A stretch of 64,000 nt of DNA, taken from contig NC_015676.1 of assembly GCF_000217995.1 (NCBI RefSeq), positions 1,657,708 through 1,721,707 of the forward strand, read 5' to 3'. Positions 11,284 to 23,135 of this stretch are shown here, piece after piece. A program made the position numbers and the translations under genes. The notes below the pieces were generated by a model, which saw only the letters and a list, made by a program, of their open reading frames with translations, was not told where the DNA came from and did no database searches. This DNA comes from Methanosalsum zhilinae DSM 4017. GTDB lineage: Archaea > Halobacteriota > Methanosarcinia > Methanosarcinales > Methanosarcinaceae. How positions within the stretch are numbered: the first letter of the stretch is position 1; the number at the start of each line of letters is the position of its first letter.

Positions 11284-11453
11284 AATTGAAAATAAATAAT
11301 AAAAGGCTTTGAAATTAAAAAATAGGTAAAAAATAGGAAGTTTCAGGTCGTATACTTAAAAACAATATCAAGCCTATACCCCTATTAATTGCATTATATA
11401 GAGATAATACTTAAGATCATGGTCCAGCCATCTATAGATATGCTTGGGGATCA

Positions 11454-11480
11454 GTTCATCCCCATGTGTATGGAGAGCTA
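11454..11480 (+). repeat. Solitary degenerate CRISPR repeat downstream of cas2
   Basis: The bases from 11454 read GTTCATCCCCATGTGTATGG. They match the array repeat at 22 of 27 positions and in the same orientation as the array. Two of the five differences (C to T and G to A) face each other in the repeat hairpin and keep a base pair. No second repeat is visible 61 bases on either side. An alternative 7-bp hairpin, TGGGGAT with ATCCCCA, spans 11445-11464. It lies about 100 bases beyond the cas2 stop. Confidence 0.75.
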
Positions 11481-11582
11481 ACTGATTCATATATATATTC
11501 GATTAAAATAAATGACAACAAGTTTCTTCTGGAGATATAAATATTTGTAGATATCATTAAGAATTTCATGCTGATTCTTCAT

Positions 11583-12771
<1,189 letters not shown>

Positions 12772-12781
12772 TCTACCGACC

Positions 12782-13465
12782 TCATCGAATTGGTTTAACT
12801 AACATGAGGCCACATCCAAAGCTTTTTGCTGGACCAATACCATTAAACAATGCATTTGTGAAAGATTCCATGTCTGTAACTTGAATCATACCATCAAAAT
12901 CAAGTGTACTAATTTTAATTTGGCCACTACCTTTAGGTTTTTTGAAATTGTGGGTCTGGTATCCATCAGCTCTTACGTTTCTCCAATCAAAAGTAAAGCC
13001 ATTTTTGAGACCTTTTTTATTTAGCCACTCCAAACCTTTTTCATGTGCAATTTCTGAAATCGGTGGAAGTTTACTACTATTTAGTTTCTCACTTTGAAGC
13101 CTATATTTTTCATCCATCACCACATCATGTCTTTTTTGTTTTCCATTTTCATCCCTCTTAGTAACAACCGGATTGGCCCTGAGTGAAAAAAGAAAATGTT
13201 GACCAGGATTTATTTTTGGATCATATGTTTTTACATCAATATTGAAATAAGACAAATTATTAGCAGGAATACTCTTTGAAACTACGTAAAAAGTAGGAAC
13301 ATTCCTATTAAATTCATAGCGGTATAAAAAATCTCTCTTATCGTCTGGCTTTTTTGAAAAGAGCGACCAAACAAGTTGATGTATACTATACGTGTTTTGC
13401 AGTTTATTCCAGACATCTTTATCAAAAACTTTGTCCGGGAGAATTTCTGCCTTTGTCATATACAT
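12782..13465 (-). CDS. cas6e: CRISPR RNA endoribonuclease Cas6e (Cse3/CasE)
   Basis: This 227-residue protein has an N-terminal RAMP fold and the glycine-rich C-terminal loop GPAKSFGCGLMLVKPIR diagnostic of Cas6e. The candidate catalytic His29 (with Tyr26) lies in TYSIHQLVWSLF, matching the N-terminal histidine of the family. It cuts the precursor RNA at the base of each repeat hairpin and stays bound to the 3' handle in Cascade. The start at 13465 is 2 bases after the cas5e stop, and ATG 13459 is an equally possible start. Confidence 0.94.
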   Translation of the reverse strand: MYMTKAEILPDKVFDKDVWNKLQNTYSIHQLVWSLFSKKPDDKRDFLYRYEFNRNVPTFYVVSKSIPANNLSYFNIDVKTYDPKINPGQHFLFSLRANPVVTKRDENGKQKRHDVVMDEKYRLQSEKLNSSKLPPISEIAHEKGLEWLNKKGLKNGFTFDWRNVRADGYQTHNFKKPKGSGQIKISTLDFDGMIQVTDMESFTNALFNGIGPAKSFGCGLMLVKPIR

Positions 13466-13467
13466 GT

Positions 13468-14190
13468 TTAATTCTCCATATTAACCATTGCATAATATTC
13501 ATTCCTTCTAGAGAATTGCCATCTTTTACGACTGAGTATCTCATCATATTTGGAGATTACTTGATCCGAATCTATATTTTCATCAGGATCCTCCCAATAA
13601 AATCTACAATTTTGAGATGAGTTTAGCTCTGGTATAAAAATTCTATCTCTGAAATCGGTGATCAATAGCGCTTCTTTCATATTACTTGCTGAAACTACCT
13701 TTGGATCTAAAGGCAGAGATAGTGGACAGGACTTTCTACCGAGATATAGGTTGAAACTCGGGTTATTTAGTTTATCGATTAACATTGAAAATGGGTAGGG
13801 TGGCTCCTCACTCTTTGAGGATAAAATAATAGTATACAGACAGTCACTATAATAGTCCCGTGTAGAGATAATGGTGTTCAAATTATTATCATCCGTTTCT
13901 AATTCTTCTTTTCTTGAAGAATGAGTCTTTTTACTTTTCCCAGGTACTTGAGATGTGTGATAGTCTCGCAACATATTTCCATGAGAATTTACTAAAACAC
14001 CATAATTGTAAGATGAATTTAATTTTAAATGAGCTTCATCATCATCTCTATCAATGCCCAAAGCAGCTGCTAGCAACCCAAAAATTGCAGATTTTGAAGG
14101 ATGGTCAAACGTTGGTCTGTGTGTACCTATCGCAATATCTCCCCAAGATGCTATTGGTGCATATATCCGGAAAATTAAATAATCTTTCAT
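13468..14190 (-). CDS. cas5e: Cascade subunit Cas5e (CasD)
   Basis: From ATG 14190 this is 240 residues, opening MKDYLIFRIYAPIASWGDIA, followed by RPTFDHPSKSAIFGLLAAALGI. This is the canonical Cas5e N-terminus, where the RAMP fold grips the crRNA 5' handle. GGAG and GGGT lie just upstream of 14190. A GTG at 14205 would add only MELGQ. The C-terminal part with SRKRWQFSRRNEYYAMV is also family-like. It sits between cas7e and cas6e in the standard I-E order. Confidence 0.94.
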   Translation of the reverse strand: MKDYLIFRIYAPIASWGDIAIGTHRPTFDHPSKSAIFGLLAAALGIDRDDDEAHLKLNSSYNYGVLVNSHGNMLRDYHTSQVPGKSKKTHSSRKEELETDDNNLNTIISTRDYYSDCLYTIILSSKSEEPPYPFSMLIDKLNNPSFNLYLGRKSCPLSLPLDPKVVSASNMKEALLITDFRDRIFIPELNSSQNCRFYWEDPDENIDSDQVISKYDEILSRKRWQFSRRNEYYAMVNMEN

Positions 14191-14211
14191 TTGACCCAGC
14201 TCCACTTTAAA

Positions 14212-15330
14212 TTAGTTACTGATAAAATCCATTAGTTCTGACATATTGCCTTCACCAGTGTAAACATTCATCGTCTTAACTTCGTCTGCACATGGGCCAT
14301 ACACTTGATCCATCTTCGCTTTTGTAGTTTCCAATTTATCAATAGCATCCTTCAGCATGTCATCACCAGTAATAGATTTTAAGTATGACACTGCCAAACT
14401 CCGTGGCTGTTGATTTCCTTTTTCTACCATCACATAAGATGCATAGGATCTTGAAGCAAAGCTATTTTGTTTACCAGTGGGTGAAACTTTAGAAGCAGCT
14501 TCTATCAACGCCTTTAGAGAGTTGGATACTAAATTCTTATCACCGCCTAAGTTTGATTCCAATAAATCCTTATCAACACATATATATGTATAAAATAAAC
14601 CAGAACCAAACTCATTCTCTCCAAGGTGCCCCGATCCCATGTTTTCTTCACCTTTGTTCAGGTCGTCAACAGCAGTGAAATAGTCATCTTCAACGGCAAC
14701 TTTGTTGGCAGTGATGGCATGAGATACTTGAACCGCAGCTTCTGTATTATACATTGTATCCGATGCAAGCATACGTCCAAACATCGCAATATCAACTGCC
14801 GTATGCTTTTGTTTCAATAAATCCAGTTTTTTAATATCTTCTTTAGAAGGTTTTTTTTGTTCTTGGGCTATTTGTGACATTAATTCATCTATTGATGTTA
14901 TTTCTTCTGGGCTGAAATGAGCAAGTTGCTCGATCTCCAGTTCAGCAAGTGGATTATTTTTATTTTCTTTTTTGATTTTTCCAAAAACATCAGCAATTGC
15001 TTTTGCCCATTCTTTTGCTACACTTTCCTCTACAGGATTGTTAACCTTATCGGAGTTAAAACCGTTATTTAAAAAATCTTTTAGTGTGAAGCCATTTGTT
15101 AATGCTTTGAAAACACTCACACCCATACTTTTGGTTCTAATTCCGATATTTCCATCAAGTTTTTCTTTGAATATATCAGATGTTCTCCATGCTCTTTTTA
15201 GACTCTGCGAAGATATCCTCAATCTTTGAGTACCACCCATTATAGCAGTTTTTGGTCTCCCAAGATCATCTCTATTAAGATTGGAAGGAGGATACGATAC
15301 TAAAGTGTGTATTTGTACAAATTTTGACAT
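14212..15330 (-). CDS. cas7e: Cascade backbone subunit Cas7e (CasC/Cse4)
   Basis: This 372-residue protein opens MSKFVQIHTLVSYPPSNLNR, then GRPKTAIMGGTQRLRISSQS and LKRAWR, the hallmark of Cas7e. AMFGRMLASDTMYNTEAAVQVSHAIT and GSGLFYTYICVDKDLLE follow. Six copies form the crRNA-binding backbone in type I-E Cascade. A helical lysine/glutamate-rich stretch around residues 125-160 is the usual variable thumb region. It is preceded by a GGTGATC ribosome binding site. Length agrees with the family (about 350-370). Confidence 0.96.
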   Translation of the reverse strand: MSKFVQIHTLVSYPPSNLNRDDLGRPKTAIMGGTQRLRISSQSLKRAWRTSDIFKEKLDGNIGIRTKSMGVSVFKALTNGFTLKDFLNNGFNSDKVNNPVEESVAKEWAKAIADVFGKIKKENKNNPLAELEIEQLAHFSPEEITSIDELMSQIAQEQKKPSKEDIKKLDLLKQKHTAVDIAMFGRMLASDTMYNTEAAVQVSHAITANKVAVEDDYFTAVDDLNKGEENMGSGHLGENEFGSGLFYTYICVDKDLLESNLGGDKNLVSNSLKALIEAASKVSPTGKQNSFASRSYASYVMVEKGNQQPRSLAVSYLKSITGDDMLKDAIDKLETTKAKMDQVYGPCADEVKTMNVYTGEGNMSELMDFISN

Positions 15331-15348
15331 TTCTAGATCACCTTTTTT

Positions 15349-15840
15349 TTAATTTGATAATTTGTCATAGTATTCAAAAGCCCAGTTCTTTTTAGTAATA
15401 TCATTCCACCAATAGATACTATTAGCAAGATTACATATGTTGACATTCCCATTCATGAGTTTTATTAACCTAACAAGATAAATGAAGAGTTCTTCTCTTT
15501 CATCGATTGTCAAGACCCTTCTAAACCTCAGTTCACTTACTTTTGGTTTTGAGCCATCTTTGGTTTTTGCCATTTGACCTGCAAATGTGTTATTAGTATC
15601 ATTTTCTTTGACATGAGCTAAGACACCTGCAAGAAGTGCTACTGCTCTTTTGTTCTTAAAACCTAAATTACTTAGCTGGTGCCATAGATAGTGATAAGAT
15701 GGAGTGAATACAACCTCGCTCAGGTCGTGGCATCTACGAAGATTAGCTCTATCCGCTTTTCTGTTTTCCAGGTCCTTCCACCACTGAATTACAATTTTAC
15801 AAACATCTTCTTGTTCTAATGAACTTTTCATTTTTGTCAA
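15349..15840 (-). CDS. cas11e: Cascade small subunit Cas11e (Cse2/CasB)
   Basis: This 163-residue all-helical protein matches Cse2. It has an N-terminal helix ending in WWKDLENRKADRANLRRCHD, then FTPSYHYLWHQLSNLGF, an arginine-rich FRRVLTIDEREELFIYLVRL, and a tryptophan-rich end (SIYWWNDITKKNWAFEYY). Two copies form the belly of Cascade and stabilise the R-loop. It is located between cas8e and cas7e, 18 bases before cas7e, in the standard I-E arrangement. Confidence 0.92.
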   Translation of the reverse strand: MTKMKSSLEQEDVCKIVIQWWKDLENRKADRANLRRCHDLSEVVFTPSYHYLWHQLSNLGFKNKRAVALLAGVLAHVKENDTNNTFAGQMAKTKDGSKPKVSELRFRRVLTIDEREELFIYLVRLIKLMNGNVNICNLANSIYWWNDITKKNWAFEYYDKLSN

Positions 15841-15871: not shown

Positions 15872-17446
15872 TTATGTTGATAGACCTAAAGCCTTAATGA
15901 CTTGTTTGTTCTTTTGAGAATTATAATTTCTAAGATTACGGCGAGAAGTAGCTACTTTTTTAGGGTTTACTATACTCTGTTGAGCCGGATTCGTATATTC
16001 ATCAAACAAATTCAAGGATTGCTTTGATAAGTATTTGAGCCAATCAAGTTTGACTTGGTTAATAAGTGCTTCATCATCACTTTGTTTTGATATAACATCA
16101 ACAAACGAGTAGAATTCGGCTTCTGTCCTATACCAAAACTGCGAATCTATATGTGATAGTTCACCCGAGCTACTCGACTTTGGTACTATGGCGTTTTTAA
16201 CACAACTTCTTGTATTATTTTTTATCACTTCAGCACATGTAACCAACCTTTCAACAGTAATTTCATATTTCTTTCTAATGTTTTCATTTACAGTTATAAG
16301 TGGCATGGTGCTTTCATACCAACTACGTACTTTCATATTATCAAAATCAAAGCCAAATGCCCACAGTCTAGGTGAATGCTGAAACACTTCACTTAAATTT
16401 CTTGGTCTTTTAAAGAACTCATCGACCACTAAAGCGGGGTGATATGAATCACTACTATCGTGCTGGACTAGCCCTACCCAATATCTATACGTAATACCGC
16501 CTGGCTGTGGATGTCTTGGGAGCAACTGTGACTTTTCTTCACGATGTGGAGATAAAGTATGTGCCCAATTACCTTCATAATTAACACCATAGTTTTTTGT
16601 AATGTATTTTGTGATTAAACTGTCACACGATTCACTACAAATATCACATTCACCATCTTCTCTTTGCTCAAAATCAATCTTGATTCTTCGAGGCATCCCC
16701 CAATACATTTGCTTTGGGCTTACATCCATAGGTGTTGTGATTACACCAGTTCTTGGTTCACTTGTCCTTGTAGGCCCCATCCAAGGAAAGATATCTGAGA
16801 GATCTGTGTGACTGACATCTCCTAATTGAGTAAAGTTATCTTCAACAACAATATTGAGCCAGACATGGTGCCATAAATTCTCGCCAAGTATGAGAGTAGT
16901 TAGTGGTCCACCACCTCTTAATGAAGTACGGTGACCGGCACCACCAGATGGTGCATTTAATTGTAAATTGAAAAGTGCCATAGCACAACATGTTGGACAC
17001 ATCTTGGTTACACTATCACGCTTTAGAAAATGATCTGCATTGTTTTTTAAAGTATTGTCTCCAGGCATTTCCATTAACAGAGAATCTACTCTGGATTTTT
17101 TTGAATCGATATTTAATTCATAATCTTGCATGAATAAACCCGACCCATTTTCATCAAAGTTGAATGCAGAAGAAACTGAAGAAAACGATTCTTTCAATTG
17201 TTCAGGTGTAGGAGGTCTTAAAAAATGTTTTCTCCACGTTCTATCATCCTTTGGAGAAATGGTTGTTTGAACCAGTCCAATCAAAAATTGCATCATAGAA
17301 CCATTAAAATCGGGCCGTGGAGTATTTATTGAGACTATAGGATTAGTTTCAATATTAGTTGTAATCTCCCATGGTGCAATTTTTTCTGCAGTACCATCAG
17401 CTCTCTTTACACCAATCCATTTATCGTAAATTAAATTGAATGTCAT
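15872..17446 (-). CDS. cas8e: Cascade large subunit Cas8e (Cse1/CasA)
   Basis: This 524-residue protein opens MTFNLIYDKWIGVKRADG, like E. coli CasA. It carries a zinc-site-like Cys pair in MCPTCCAMALF, a glycine-rich segment GAGHRTSLRGGGPLTTL, and CDICSESC. The C-terminal four-helix bundle starts near residue 380. Cas8e recognises the PAM and recruits Cas3 after R-loop formation. It follows cas3 by 15 bases. Length is typical (about 500). Confidence 0.95.
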   Translation of the reverse strand: MTFNLIYDKWIGVKRADGTAEKIAPWEITTNIETNPIVSINTPRPDFNGSMMQFLIGLVQTTISPKDDRTWRKHFLRPPTPEQLKESFSSVSSAFNFDENGSGLFMQDYELNIDSKKSRVDSLLMEMPGDNTLKNNADHFLKRDSVTKMCPTCCAMALFNLQLNAPSGGAGHRTSLRGGGPLTTLILGENLWHHVWLNIVVEDNFTQLGDVSHTDLSDIFPWMGPTRTSEPRTGVITTPMDVSPKQMYWGMPRRIKIDFEQREDGECDICSESCDSLITKYITKNYGVNYEGNWAHTLSPHREEKSQLLPRHPQPGGITYRYWVGLVQHDSSDSYHPALVVDEFFKRPRNLSEVFQHSPRLWAFGFDFDNMKVRSWYESTMPLITVNENIRKKYEITVERLVTCAEVIKNNTRSCVKNAIVPKSSSSGELSHIDSQFWYRTEAEFYSFVDVISKQSDDEALINQVKLDWLKYLSKQSLNLFDEYTNPAQQSIVNPKKVATSRRNLRNYNSQKNKQVIKALGLST

Positions 17447-17461
17447 AGTTTTATATTTCCT

Positions 17462-20215
17462 TCAATATTTACTTGTGTGTAATCCTGTCTTTGCATCGTA
17501 TATTAGCTTCACTTTCTGACGATTTTGGTTCTCTCCAAAACCTAGCCACATACCGTCTTCCTGCAGTTCCATAGGTATAAACAAACTCCATTTACATTTA
17601 TCTTTCATAGAATTTTTAGTTTCATCAATTAGTTCATTTATCTCCTCAGGATAACTAGGATATTTAACACGAATTGCGCTTACATTGACTTGGCTCATCT
17701 CCCAGGGGTGTCGGGTTGAACTATTAAGTGGTAATATCGCACCGTTTACTAATTTACCTAACCTTAAAGTTATAGAATCACCTAAGCGCGTTGGTACGAC
17801 CGTATCATCGATCCATTGAGTACCTGTACGATCATATCCCTGAAATATTTTTAAAGATCTCCAGACGGCCATTGATTTTTCAGCCATAGTTTCGCCATAA
17901 GCATTCCTATCCACATTTAACAAAGCACTGGGGATGCTTTCATCTGCATTAGGTCCAAAAACACCTTCTATTAAGTATCTGCTATCTCGAGGAATATGCA
18001 TTTCTTTCATTTCCAAAAGCAACTTTGCAGTAAGCCAAAGTTTACCATGTGTTTGATATACATAGCAACCTTTTGAAAACATACCAGAATACCAGCTATC
18101 AGATGCATCTTCTGTCGGCCTTGGGGATAATATACCCAATACTGGAGTTTTTCTAGAATCTTGCGTAGCAATATTACCATTTAAATCACGTTTGTGTCTA
18201 TGTAACCGACCTGCCCTTTGAATAATAAGGTCAATTGGAGCCAAATCTGTTACCATATAATCAAAATCAAGGTCTAGTGATTGTTCAACAACCTGCGTAG
18301 ATATTAAAATCTTACCAGCCCTCTGTTTATTACCACTGTTTTTGCCAAATGTCTCGAGTACTGACTCTTCAATTTTGAGTCTATCTCCCATTGTGAATCT
18401 TGCGTGGAATAAAATAACATTCTCGTGACCTATACAGTTGGCAATTGAATTATAAGCATCTATGGCATCATCTACTGTATTTCGAATCCAACAGCAACAA
18501 AATCCATTATTTGAAGCATCTATTATACTTTTTCGAACATGAGTTTTATCATGGAAAAATTCACATGAAACAACTCGTTCATTTTGAGATAAGTAATCAA
18601 CTGGTTGTTCTTCTGATCCAGAACTTGATATATGTGTAACCAAAGGGTACTCGATCTTAGACACTGATTCAAACTCATAGCCTGCTCCAGTAGAAAACGA
18701 TCGGACCAAATCATTTTTTTGTTTTAGCGGTAATGTAGCTGATAAAAGAATTACACTTCCACCCAGGGAAGCATGGAAAGTGAGCAAATTACATAACAAT
18801 TCATGCATATAAGGATCATATGCGTGGACTTCATCAACTATCAACACATTTCTAGATAAACCTAATAGTCTTAGAGATTGGTGCTTTGATGGGAGCACAC
18901 TCATAATAGCTTGATCAATTGTACCAACCCCAACGTCAGCTAACAACGATTTTTTTCTATTATCTGCTATCCAAGCAGAACATTGAGCTGAAATGGTTGA
19001 TTCTTTGGTATTGTTCTCACCATAAAAATCATTTTCAGTTTTATTTGGTCCTATAGTATTTCTAAAAATTTTTGAGAGATGACTTTGTCCGTGTGCTAGA
19101 ACCAGTGATGGATTGGATATAGGCTCATATATCTTCGAATAAGACTCGTATAATCTTTCATACATTGCATTAGAAGTAGCCATTGTGGGTAACCCAAAAA
19201 ACAAACCATGTAGCCCTTCTCTAATCATTAACCTGTGAGATAAAGAAATTGCTGCCTCTGTTTTTCCACTACCTGTAGTATCTTCTATAATGAAAAGCTG
19301 TGGACCATTTCCAAGCTCCATCTCAGAAACAAAATTTTGCATTGGGGTAGGTTTTTTGATATAACCAAACAGGTGATTAATTCCACTCTCATGAGATACC
19401 TGTGATGGACATATCCCCGAATCTTTTAAAGCTTTTTTAGAGGCAGGTAACGCTATCTCAGTCCAGTATTTTTCTAAATTCATTATTGATGAATTATAAT
19501 TAAAATATGACTCTGACGACCCTATCCAGTCACTGACTACTGCAAGGCCAGATAGAAGCCAAGAAGTTTTTTTAAAATATCTTTCCAAATCTTCAAAGAT
19601 ATCTACATCCCCACTATTTGAGGTTAGTGAGCTAAATCCATTTTTGAGTATAAGTTGGGATATTGACTCAATATAAGAAACTGCCATTTCCTTGTCATCA
19701 CTGGAGAACAATTCATCATAGTTGATTTGGACTCCATTGTTTATATAAATAGGAGGATAGCCATGATGCCCAGTAGTAGCACGCAGCCACGGTAATATCA
19801 GTTCATTCCAGTCAAACTCATCATAGATTGTTTTATCAAGTGATAATATATTCATTTTCCACAAATCATTCCATAAGCTGTTCCATAGATGGTATCCTAA
19901 ACTGTCATGTCTTATTTCATAACTTTTCTCAGAGCTATAACCTCTCAATTTTTTCATAAGATGAGGTTGTAGTGACTGGAAATTCTTAGAAAATTTACCG
20001 ATATCATGAATTGCAATATAAAATGTTATAAGGCAAATCAAATCGTCGTCTTCTATTGGTAAATAATTTTTAAATTTTTCTAAGAAGATCTTGTCATTGT
20101 GTAATAATGAATTAGCAGTTGCTGCTACATCAAGACAATGATATGCTAACAAGTGGTAGTTAAATTCTTCATCAGAACCTGTTCTGAATTTTCCCCAATT
20201 ATTGTAAAAATTCAC
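17462..20215 (-). CDS. cas3: CRISPR-associated helicase/nuclease Cas3 (HD domain fused)
   Basis: This 917-residue protein has an N-terminal HD nuclease domain (YHCLDVAATA, His70-Asp71 in IAIHDIGKF, TGHHGYPP, VSDWIGSS). An SF2 helicase follows, with Walker A DTTGSGKTE at about 312-320, DEVH at 461-464, ILLSATLP, and the motif VI region QRAGRLHRH. It degrades DNA strands opened by Cascade. The start is GTG 20215 with GGGAT upstream. It is first in the cas operon. All nuclease and helicase motifs look intact. Confidence 0.96.
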   Translation of the reverse strand: MNFYNNWGKFRTGSDEEFNYHLLAYHCLDVAATANSLLHNDKIFLEKFKNYLPIEDDDLICLITFYIAIHDIGKFSKNFQSLQPHLMKKLRGYSSEKSYEIRHDSLGYHLWNSLWNDLWKMNILSLDKTIYDEFDWNELILPWLRATTGHHGYPPIYINNGVQINYDELFSSDDKEMAVSYIESISQLILKNGFSSLTSNSGDVDIFEDLERYFKKTSWLLSGLAVVSDWIGSSESYFNYNSSIMNLEKYWTEIALPASKKALKDSGICPSQVSHESGINHLFGYIKKPTPMQNFVSEMELGNGPQLFIIEDTTGSGKTEAAISLSHRLMIREGLHGLFFGLPTMATSNAMYERLYESYSKIYEPISNPSLVLAHGQSHLSKIFRNTIGPNKTENDFYGENNTKESTISAQCSAWIADNRKKSLLADVGVGTIDQAIMSVLPSKHQSLRLLGLSRNVLIVDEVHAYDPYMHELLCNLLTFHASLGGSVILLSATLPLKQKNDLVRSFSTGAGYEFESVSKIEYPLVTHISSSGSEEQPVDYLSQNERVVSCEFFHDKTHVRKSIIDASNNGFCCCWIRNTVDDAIDAYNSIANCIGHENVILFHARFTMGDRLKIEESVLETFGKNSGNKQRAGKILISTQVVEQSLDLDFDYMVTDLAPIDLIIQRAGRLHRHKRDLNGNIATQDSRKTPVLGILSPRPTEDASDSWYSGMFSKGCYVYQTHGKLWLTAKLLLEMKEMHIPRDSRYLIEGVFGPNADESIPSALLNVDRNAYGETMAEKSMAVWRSLKIFQGYDRTGTQWIDDTVVPTRLGDSITLRLGKLVNGAILPLNSSTRHPWEMSQVNVSAIRVKYPSYPEEINELIDETKNSMKDKCKWSLFIPMELQEDGMWLGFGENQNRQKVKLIYDAKTGLHTSKY

Positions 20216-20373: not shown

Positions 20374-22052
20374 GATTCATCCCCACGTGTGTGGGGAACT
20401 CCAGAAGGGATTCAGGCCGTTCGGGGGAATACGCGGTTCATCCCCACGTGTGTGGGGAACTCTTCAAAGAATTCTATAGGGTTAAAAACAAGTGAGGTTC
20501 ATCCCCACGTGTGTGGGGAACTCATCTGTTGAATATGTTACTGTTCGATTTACTGCGGTTCATCCCCACGTGTGTGGGGAACTCATGGTCTGTGGAGATG
20601 ATGGTGAGAGGAAGGTCGGTTCATCCCCACGTGTGTGGGGAACTCAGTGCCAGCACTCTCATCCACTTTCCAATACCCGGTTCATCCCCACGTGTGTGGG
20701 GAACTCCCTATTTTAATCTCATCTTTCATTATTAAAACCGGTTCATCCCCACGTGTGTGGGGAACTCTCGATCAGACAGGGACGGATGCAAGTTCTAACT
20801 GGTTCATCCCCACGTGTGTGGGGAACTCATCACCCCTAAGCGTTTTAGTACTCCCTGGTAAAAGGTTCATCCCCACGTGTGTGGGGAACTCTGGGACAGA
20901 CTTTACACAGTTCAACCCGTTAACGGTTCATCCCCACGTGTGTGGGGAACTCGTTGAAGGATTAACTCCGAATCTATCCGCTACATGGTTCATCCCCACG
21001 TGTGTGGGGAACTCTTTTTCCTCAACACAAAATAACCACATGGGGTCGGTTCATCCCCACGTGTGTGGGGAACTCATTATCATAATCATTGAACCAAACC
21101 GTTTTAACGGTTCATCCCCACGTGTGTGGGGAACTCGGTCCTGAATTCGCAGGTATCATATATTGCATCGGTTCATCCCCACGTGTGTGGGGAACTCATC
21201 CCGCACATAAACCCGTTGTCGCACCCGCTCGGTTCATCCCCACGTGTGTGGGGAACTCGATTGATGCTATCGATTTCTTCCCCGTTGTGTCGGTTCATCC
21301 CCACGTGTGTGGGGAACTCTCTTTATCCCCCATGGGTGCATAATGTGACCACGGTTCATCCCCACGTGTGTGGGGAACTCTCTTTCAGCAAGCCTTCTTT
21401 TTGCTTCTGAATCGGTTCATCCCCACGTGTGTGGGGAACTCATATTGCTTCAGCAATATCTAAACCAATATTTCGGTTCATCCCCACGTGTGTGGGGAAC
21501 TCTGGTAAAGCAAGGTTTTGTCCAAACTTTAGTCCGGTTCATCCCCACGTGTGTGGGGAACTCGAATTACTCATATCGGTATCAAATAAATTATACGGTT
21601 CATCCCCACGTGTGTGGGGAACTCTGCATCACCATACCACATCATGATATGCCCGACGGTTCATCCCCACGTGTGTGGGGAACTCATCTAAACTCAAACC
21701 TACTCGTTACGATTAAACGGTTCATCCCCACGTGTGTGGGGAACTCTTCGCATTATATCAGAATTTGATTTACCTGTAGCGGTTCATCCCCACGTGTGTG
21801 GGGAACTCTACCCATCATCAGTGAATCCGTCATCTGGTACTGGTTCATCCCCACGTGTGTGGGGAACTCGTAAGTATATTCGAAGATATCGACAGGGTAA
21901 ACGGTTCATCCCCACGTGTGTGGGGAACTCCCGTCACCGCTTTTTTGTGGCAAAAACTTTACAGGTTCATCCCCACGTGTGTGGGGAACTCTGGTTCTAA
22001 GTTGTCCCATAGTACTAAAAAGCCGGTTCATCCCCACGTGTGTGGGGAACTC
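20374..22052 (-). CRISPR. Type I-E CRISPR array, 28 repeats and 27 spacers
   Basis: Twenty-eight copies of a 28-base repeat start at 20374, 20435, 20496 and so on to 22025. Read on the minus strand, the repeat begins GAGTTCCCC and ends GGGGATGAACC, like the E. coli I-E repeat, with the palindrome CCCCAC/GTGGGG. Spacing is 61 bases (33-base spacers) except for one 35-base and two 34-base spacers. The only variant repeat is the leftmost one (one substitution), so 20374 is the trailer and the leader is on the right. Transcription is therefore leftward, the same strand as the cas genes. The spacers are all different by eye. Confidence 0.98.
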
Positions 22053-22255
22053 TGTTTCTTATATATTTGATTAGAAAGGATGAAGGCAACTTTCTTCCGT
22101 ATACAGAATTATTGCGTTAAACATACATTGTCATTAACTTCTTTTACGTCTCCATCTATATTATTTTTTACCGAACTGATTTCAAAAATATAAAACAAAT
22201 TATAAAAAAATTGTTTATTATCACCTATTATATCCTGATTTTGCTGCAATTCTTA
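22053..22255 (-). promoter_or_regulatory. CRISPR leader region
   Basis: This AT-rich stretch borders the newest, non-degenerate end of the array and has no ORF. Read leftward it contains TATA-like runs around 22185-22205 (TTTTATATTT, TTTATAATTT) that could drive pre-crRNA transcription. New spacers should be inserted at 22052. The exact promoter is not resolved. Confidence 0.6.
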
Positions 22256-22697: not shown

Positions 22698-22963
22698 TTA
22701 TTCAAAATGATACATGATTCGTTCAATTTCAGCAACCACTCTATACACGTCTGTAAGAGTTACTTCATTAAAATCCTTGCTAAAATATCTAACTGGCTAA
22801 GATATTTCAAAACAAGTGTGTCTGACAATCCTTCCCCATACAGAACATTTACAAATTCAAAAATTATATCTTTGTTTCGATGTAAATAATCTGCATCAAT
22901 AATTGTTTTTCTGCAGATTCTATTTTGATTAGATAAATATCCAAAATTAGCTGGGTGAAAGTA
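22698..22963 (-). pseudogene. Remnant of a tyrosine recombinase/integrase (N-terminal part)
   Basis: Leftward translation gives NKDIIFEFVNVLYGEGLSDT, then LVLKYLSQLDILA. After a one-base shift it continues DFNEVTLTDVYRVVAEIER and stops shortly after. This matches the SAM-like N-terminal domain of archaeal XerA/phage-type tyrosine recombinases, where such a segment is followed by the YSEWTKHDYK region that is missing here. The catalytic domain is gone. It lies 24 bases from the tRNA-Thr gene, the usual place for an integrase of a tRNA-targeting element. Confidence 0.55.
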
Positions 22964-22986
22964 TTAGGCTTGATACTGTCTTAAGA

Positions 22987-23058
22987 AGCCTCGGGCGGGA
23001 TTTGAACCCGCGACCTCGTCCTTACCAAGGACGCGCTATGCCCCTAAGCCACCGAGGC
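22987..23058 (-). tRNA. tRNA-Thr (anticodon GGT)
   Basis: The minus strand folds into a full cloverleaf: acceptor GCCTCGG paired with CCGAGGC, anticodon stem CGTCC/GGACG with loop TTGGTAA (anticodon GGT), and T arm GCGGG TTCAAAT CCCGC. The discriminator base is U, as in archaeal tRNA-Thr. CCA is not encoded and there is no intron. The 3' end faces the CRISPR island, so this gene is the probable integration site. Confidence 0.96.
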
Positions 23059-23135
23059 TCATTGTAAGAATAATGAGTTGATTCCACCAGATGTTGCGAA
23101 TCAATTATGAAGGTTTCGGTTGAAACCGGAAAATG

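Follow-up and report, generated by a model that had tools for sequence, protein, structure and literature searches.

A single decayed type I-E repeat lies just past cas2 in Methanosalsum zhilinae DSM 4017, and the 102 bases ahead of it are, judging by sequence alignment, a degraded version of the leader in front of the active array at 22 kb. Based on the arrays that relatives carry at the same place and on the homologous leader, we consider this leader and repeat to be the remnant of a lost ancestral cas2-adjacent array, with a probability of about 0.9. The repeat is most likely an ordinary evolutionary remnant and not a new regulatory RNA.

Results

The window, that is, the whole 64,000-nt stretch of DNA that was analyzed, belongs to a genome that consists of a single contig of 2,138,444 bp. 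The type I-E operon lies on the minus strand in the order cas3, cse1, three ORFs, cas6e, cas1, cas2. The features of the locus are as follows, with coordinates counted from the first base of the window:

11453..11480, minus strand: lone degenerate I-E repeat, TAGCTCTCCATACACATGGGGATGAACT, agreeing with the array repeat at 22/28 positions and sitting where relatives have an array
11481..11582, minus strand: degraded CRISPR leader between the cas2 stop and the lone repeat, assigned by local alignment to the active-array leader
11583..11879, minus strand: cas2 (type I-E, Cas_Cas2CT1978; Pfam PF09707, E 1.4e-33)
11860..12771, minus strand: cas1 (Pfam PF01867)
12782..13465, minus strand: cas6e (Pfam PF08798)
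13468..15840, minus strand: three ORFs at the expected positions of cas5e, cas7e and cse2, named by gene order between cas6e and cse1
15872..17446, minus strand: cse1 (cas8e; Pfam PF09481)
17462..20215, minus strand: cas3 (Pfam PF18019, PF22590)
20374..22052, minus strand: active I-E array of 28 repeats upstream of cas3, the degenerate end repeat at 20374 marking the trailer
22053..22130, minus strand: active-array leader, which aligns with the leader of the relic and with those next to cas2 in M. natronophilum and PWGE01000204

The active array is read on the minus strand, with its leader starting from 22053, as judged by the orientation of its repeats, the trailer repeat at 20374 and the leader alignment. 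Two stretches between this leader and tRNA-Thr have further copies in the genome: 22540-22710 (76% over 168 bp) and 22928-23060 (90% over 49 bp). The former may be a mobile element remnant, and the latter overlaps the region beside and within tRNA-Thr.

On the plus strand, the letters of 11454-11480 are GTTCATCCCCATGTGTATGGAGAGCTA, and 22 of the 27 positions agree with the array repeat. The first-pass annotation had reported the same match, about 100 bases past cas2 and 9 kb from the array. Measured here, the cas2 stop is 102 nt away and the active array 8.9 kb. Compared with the full 28-nt array repeat, the lone copy has six changes, five of which are transitions, and it lies on the minus strand, the same as the cas operon. 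It is not a chance match, since the next best sites are worse. In the 64-kb window with the array excluded, the lone repeat has 6 mismatches to the repeat and the next best site has 11. Across the whole genome, the 16-nt hairpin core has 0 mismatches at the lone repeat and 2 at the closest matches outside the locus. The annotation had also seen no second repeat, and none was found near the lone one; the next best site between 9.7 and 11.6 kb has mismatches at 13 of 28 positions. The element is therefore a single copy with no spacers, as in a collapsed array. A search of 11300-11700 against Rfam at a lax threshold returned only chance-level matches and no CRISPR family. Descent from another repeat variant carrying CCATACACATGG was considered and rejected, as this form is absent from the arrays of the relatives examined.

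When the 102-nt stretch between cas2 and the repeat was locally aligned to the active-array leader, none of 5000 dinucleotide shuffles scored as high, and this stretch scored best of all window tiles. Searched against its own genome, the relic leader with its repeat gave 73% identity over 92 bp (E 1.9e-6). The relic leader can also be aligned to the M. natronophilum leader. In a multiple alignment, the aligned leaders have the core GAAGAAA.TTG...TCAT...TAATC.AATATATA in common. The relic carries about 4 extra nt between this core and the repeat, with indels at the leader-repeat junction.

The comparison across genomes that the annotation had proposed was run with 80 relatives fetched with Cas1, and it showed that relatives carry an array at this same place. 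A repeat was found after cas1 in 72 of them, lying 351-910 nt past the cas1 match in all 72 and 351-452 nt past it in 69; the distance here is 380 nt. The contigs of the 8 relatives with no detected repeat stop 87-456 nt past cas1. In 12 relatives (Methanosarcinaceae and a Methanosalsum-like contig, L029), the gap from the cas2 stop to the first repeat is 90-167 nt, compared with 102 nt here. At the cas2-adjacent site, the congeneric M. natronophilum AME2 carries 50 repeats, beginning 90 nt past the cas2 stop. The contig L029 (PWGE01000204.1) is titled Candidatus Sumerlaeota bacterium. Its cas1 is 87% identical to the one in the window and its leader is nearly that of M. natronophilum; it is probably a mis-binned Methanosalsum contig.

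The repeat of the active array is letter for letter that of M. natronophilum, and active repeats are identical among this genome, M. natronophilum and several Methanolobus, Methanococcoides and Methanohalophilus strains. Invariance across several genera indicates strong conservation of the repeat where it functions. In the lone copy, 6 of 28 positions are changed, which exceeds the active repeats. In the Methanosarcinaceae flanks that were fetched, an array finder reported no array upstream of cas3, so the arrangement in this genome, with the array upstream of cas3, looks derived. The lone-repeat state was seen in one genome only. When the intergenic stretch was searched in two other Methanosalsum genomes, matches with E < 0.01 were limited to the M. 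natronophilum repeats and leader and a 25-bp piece.

Since relatives hold a leader and array exactly there and the sequence preceding the lone repeat is a leader homologue, the repeat is read as a relic. The annotation had offered this only as a fallback, and it is now strongly backed. The repeat is most likely the first repeat of the lost array, or a hybrid of its first and last repeats. Its final bases are GAACT, compared with GAACA in the last repeat of M. natronophilum and GAATC in the last repeat of the active array here, both being present-day repeats and not the ancestral last one.

What stands against a simple relic is the hairpin. On the transcribed minus strand the stem is CUCCAU/AUGGGG, and all six pairs survive, five of them Watson-Crick and one a U-G pair that arises from a C-to-T change in the second stem pair. 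The annotation was right that the hairpin is kept, but its count of 5 of 6 pairs came from reading the plus strand. The flanks add a perfect 7-bp outer stem, ATCAGTT/AACTGAT, around the lone repeat (11440-11500, minus strand), giving 14 pairs with the inner stem. This outer stem was looked at post hoc. Its chance is about 0.005 when the flanks are drawn at random from local sequence, and 0.01 when energies are compared with those of shuffled flanks. The fold of the 61 nt, also assessed post hoc, has z = -2.0, with 8 of 200 shuffles as good.

The annotation further took a compensatory change in the stem as a hint of selection for an RNA that Cas6e could bind, a suggestion not supported when set against random substitution. 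When six substitutions are placed at random in the repeat, the full set of six pairs survives 8-20% of the time, and in 10-27% of cases a pair (or more than one) is altered on both sides yet still pairing, the ranges depending on the transition and G+C bias assumed. Three of the twelve stem positions are altered in the lone repeat; given exactly three stem hits, all pairs are kept with a chance of 2-14%. The double change is weak evidence of selection because it is expected fairly often by chance, and the kept stem alone cannot separate selection from incomplete decay. The outer 7-bp stem is the stronger signal of the two, though a post hoc one.

One alternative is that the relic has been reused as a CreR/CreA-like guide RNA. 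The old leader would drive transcription, Cas6e would cleave the product, and the 32 nt following the repeat would direct Cascade to a cas or toxin promoter. The putative processed RNA would have the 5' handle AUGAACUG, running from 11460 toward lower coordinates. The kept hairpin and most of the 5' handle fit this idea, and known creA repeats are also degenerate (PMC8501985) and one-repeat forms exist (PMC9458426). Matching the 32 bases to the cas promoters, as the annotation had advised, gave nothing beyond shuffles. Seed positions 1-5 and 7-11 of the 32 nt were scanned in both registers over the cas locus and compared with shuffled guides. In the cas3 upstream, array leader and local cas2-alr intergenic regions, the best seed matches were 7 or 8 of 10, which were reached by 99/100 and 63/100 shuffles. 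A total identity of 20/32, equaled by 1 of 100 shuffles, is an inverted repeat (GGGGAT/ATCCCC) at the lone element itself and not a promoter. There is also no second repeat, reading the sequence revealed no T run directly after the guide or within about 60 nt of it, and the element was not found in the two other Methanosalsum genomes searched. Judged from the sequence, the guide-RNA reading is not supported and appears very improbable. The regulation of this type that the annotation had brought up is left with a guide that has no seed match, a double change expected by chance and a state seen in one genome only.

The hairpin might instead have been exapted for a guide-independent role at the 3' end of the cas transcript, in mRNA stability or 3' end formation. 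The 14 pairs of the inner and outer stems, the z of -2.0 and the rarity of the outer stem by chance favor this. Since these statistics are post hoc and modest, and the lone-repeat state was seen in one genome with no relatives for covariation, we regard it as very unlikely. A broader version, in which the array was lost and the leader and repeat were then kept as a hairpin RNA with the outer 7-bp stem, either binding Cas6e or shaping the 3' end of the cas transcript, is also unlikely. If true, a CRISPR array would here have become a regulatory element at its original site. Another possible explanation is that the leader and single repeat form a dormant integration site that Cas1-Cas2 could still extend. 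In the E. coli I-E system, a leader and one repeat are enough for acquisition, and an AT-rich leader core is still recognizable here. However, the inverted motif is altered at three of its twelve stem positions, the start of the repeat is altered, and the leader-repeat stretch contains indels, whereas active repeats do not vary. This site has gained no spacer, though the other array is long and uniform. A usable site is therefore extremely unlikely.

Discussion

The relic reading implies the following course of events. The ancestral array beside cas2 would have been lost, leaving its leader and a single repeat in place. The leftover repeat, freed from array selection, would then have drifted, mostly by C-to-T and G-to-A changes, and immunity would now rest on the array upstream of cas3. 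The lone repeat would most likely be functionless today, save for a hairpin that may form in the cas transcript's 3' tail. The array may have been lost by recombination between its repeats or by a rearrangement with an edge close to the repeat. The second route is an alternative because the similarity to M. natronophilum has its limits at cas2 and shortly upstream of cas3: the two Methanosalsum loci form one aligned block between these points, and similarity is lost past both ends. Either route may have operated.

The surroundings of tRNA-Thr were also compared. A piece of about 20 bp that follows tRNA-Thr(GGT) in M. natronophilum lies here about 75 bp beyond the relic (11355-11379, plus strand). 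Near the active array, a diverged copy follows tRNA-Thr (22985-23059, minus strand) in inverted orientation, the copy and the tRNA together spanning 22966-23059 (minus strand). The CRISPR-Cas locus is thus bracketed by the two copies. The inverted orientation of the piece beyond the relic does not fit the idea that the locus was carried in on a simple island integrated at tRNA-Thr. In M. natronophilum, the sequence downstream of tRNA-Thr is found on two contigs, G001:C21 (L111) and G001:C32 (L109), one with an intact tRNA and the other with its 3' end only, which suggests that an element integrated at this tRNA.

This locus offers a clear example of a dying CRISPR array site, in which the array is lost while another serves and the leader and repeat decay in place. 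A preserved stem in a lone degenerate repeat near cas genes need not mean a regulatory RNA. A suitable check for such repeats is whether relatives have an array and leader at the same spot.

Several known systems resemble this element. In most CreA genes there are two degenerate repeats and a seed match to the promoter (PMC8501985), and CreR RNAs are reported from type I and V-A systems (review PMC12737573). Like these (CreTA modules, cas autoregulation), the lone repeat is degenerate, ectopic and close to cas genes, and it retains a Cas6-type hairpin, here with 6/6 pairs including one U-G. Unlike them, it shows no guide-promoter complementarity in the tested regions and has no second repeat, and the array leader preceding it shows direct descent from an array. 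It also resembles solitary repeat units and the Racr RNA anti-CRISPRs (PMC10651486) in being a single repeat outside an array. Such units and RNAs, however, have their genes on phages and plasmids and far from cas genes, while the lone repeat is at a chromosomal array site behind cas2. An identity as a Racr or viral solitary repeat unit was rejected, as the repeat is directly downstream of cas2 in a single-contig genome. In Legionella pneumophila, PMC7056967 describes collapsed arrays that leave a single repeat (Rao et al. 2017, cited there) and proposes loss by recombination between the first and last repeats. The locus described here is likewise an array locus down to one repeat with no spacers. 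It differs in that a second array is intact and the single repeat has decayed, whereas the Legionella arrays are inferred to have been refilled.
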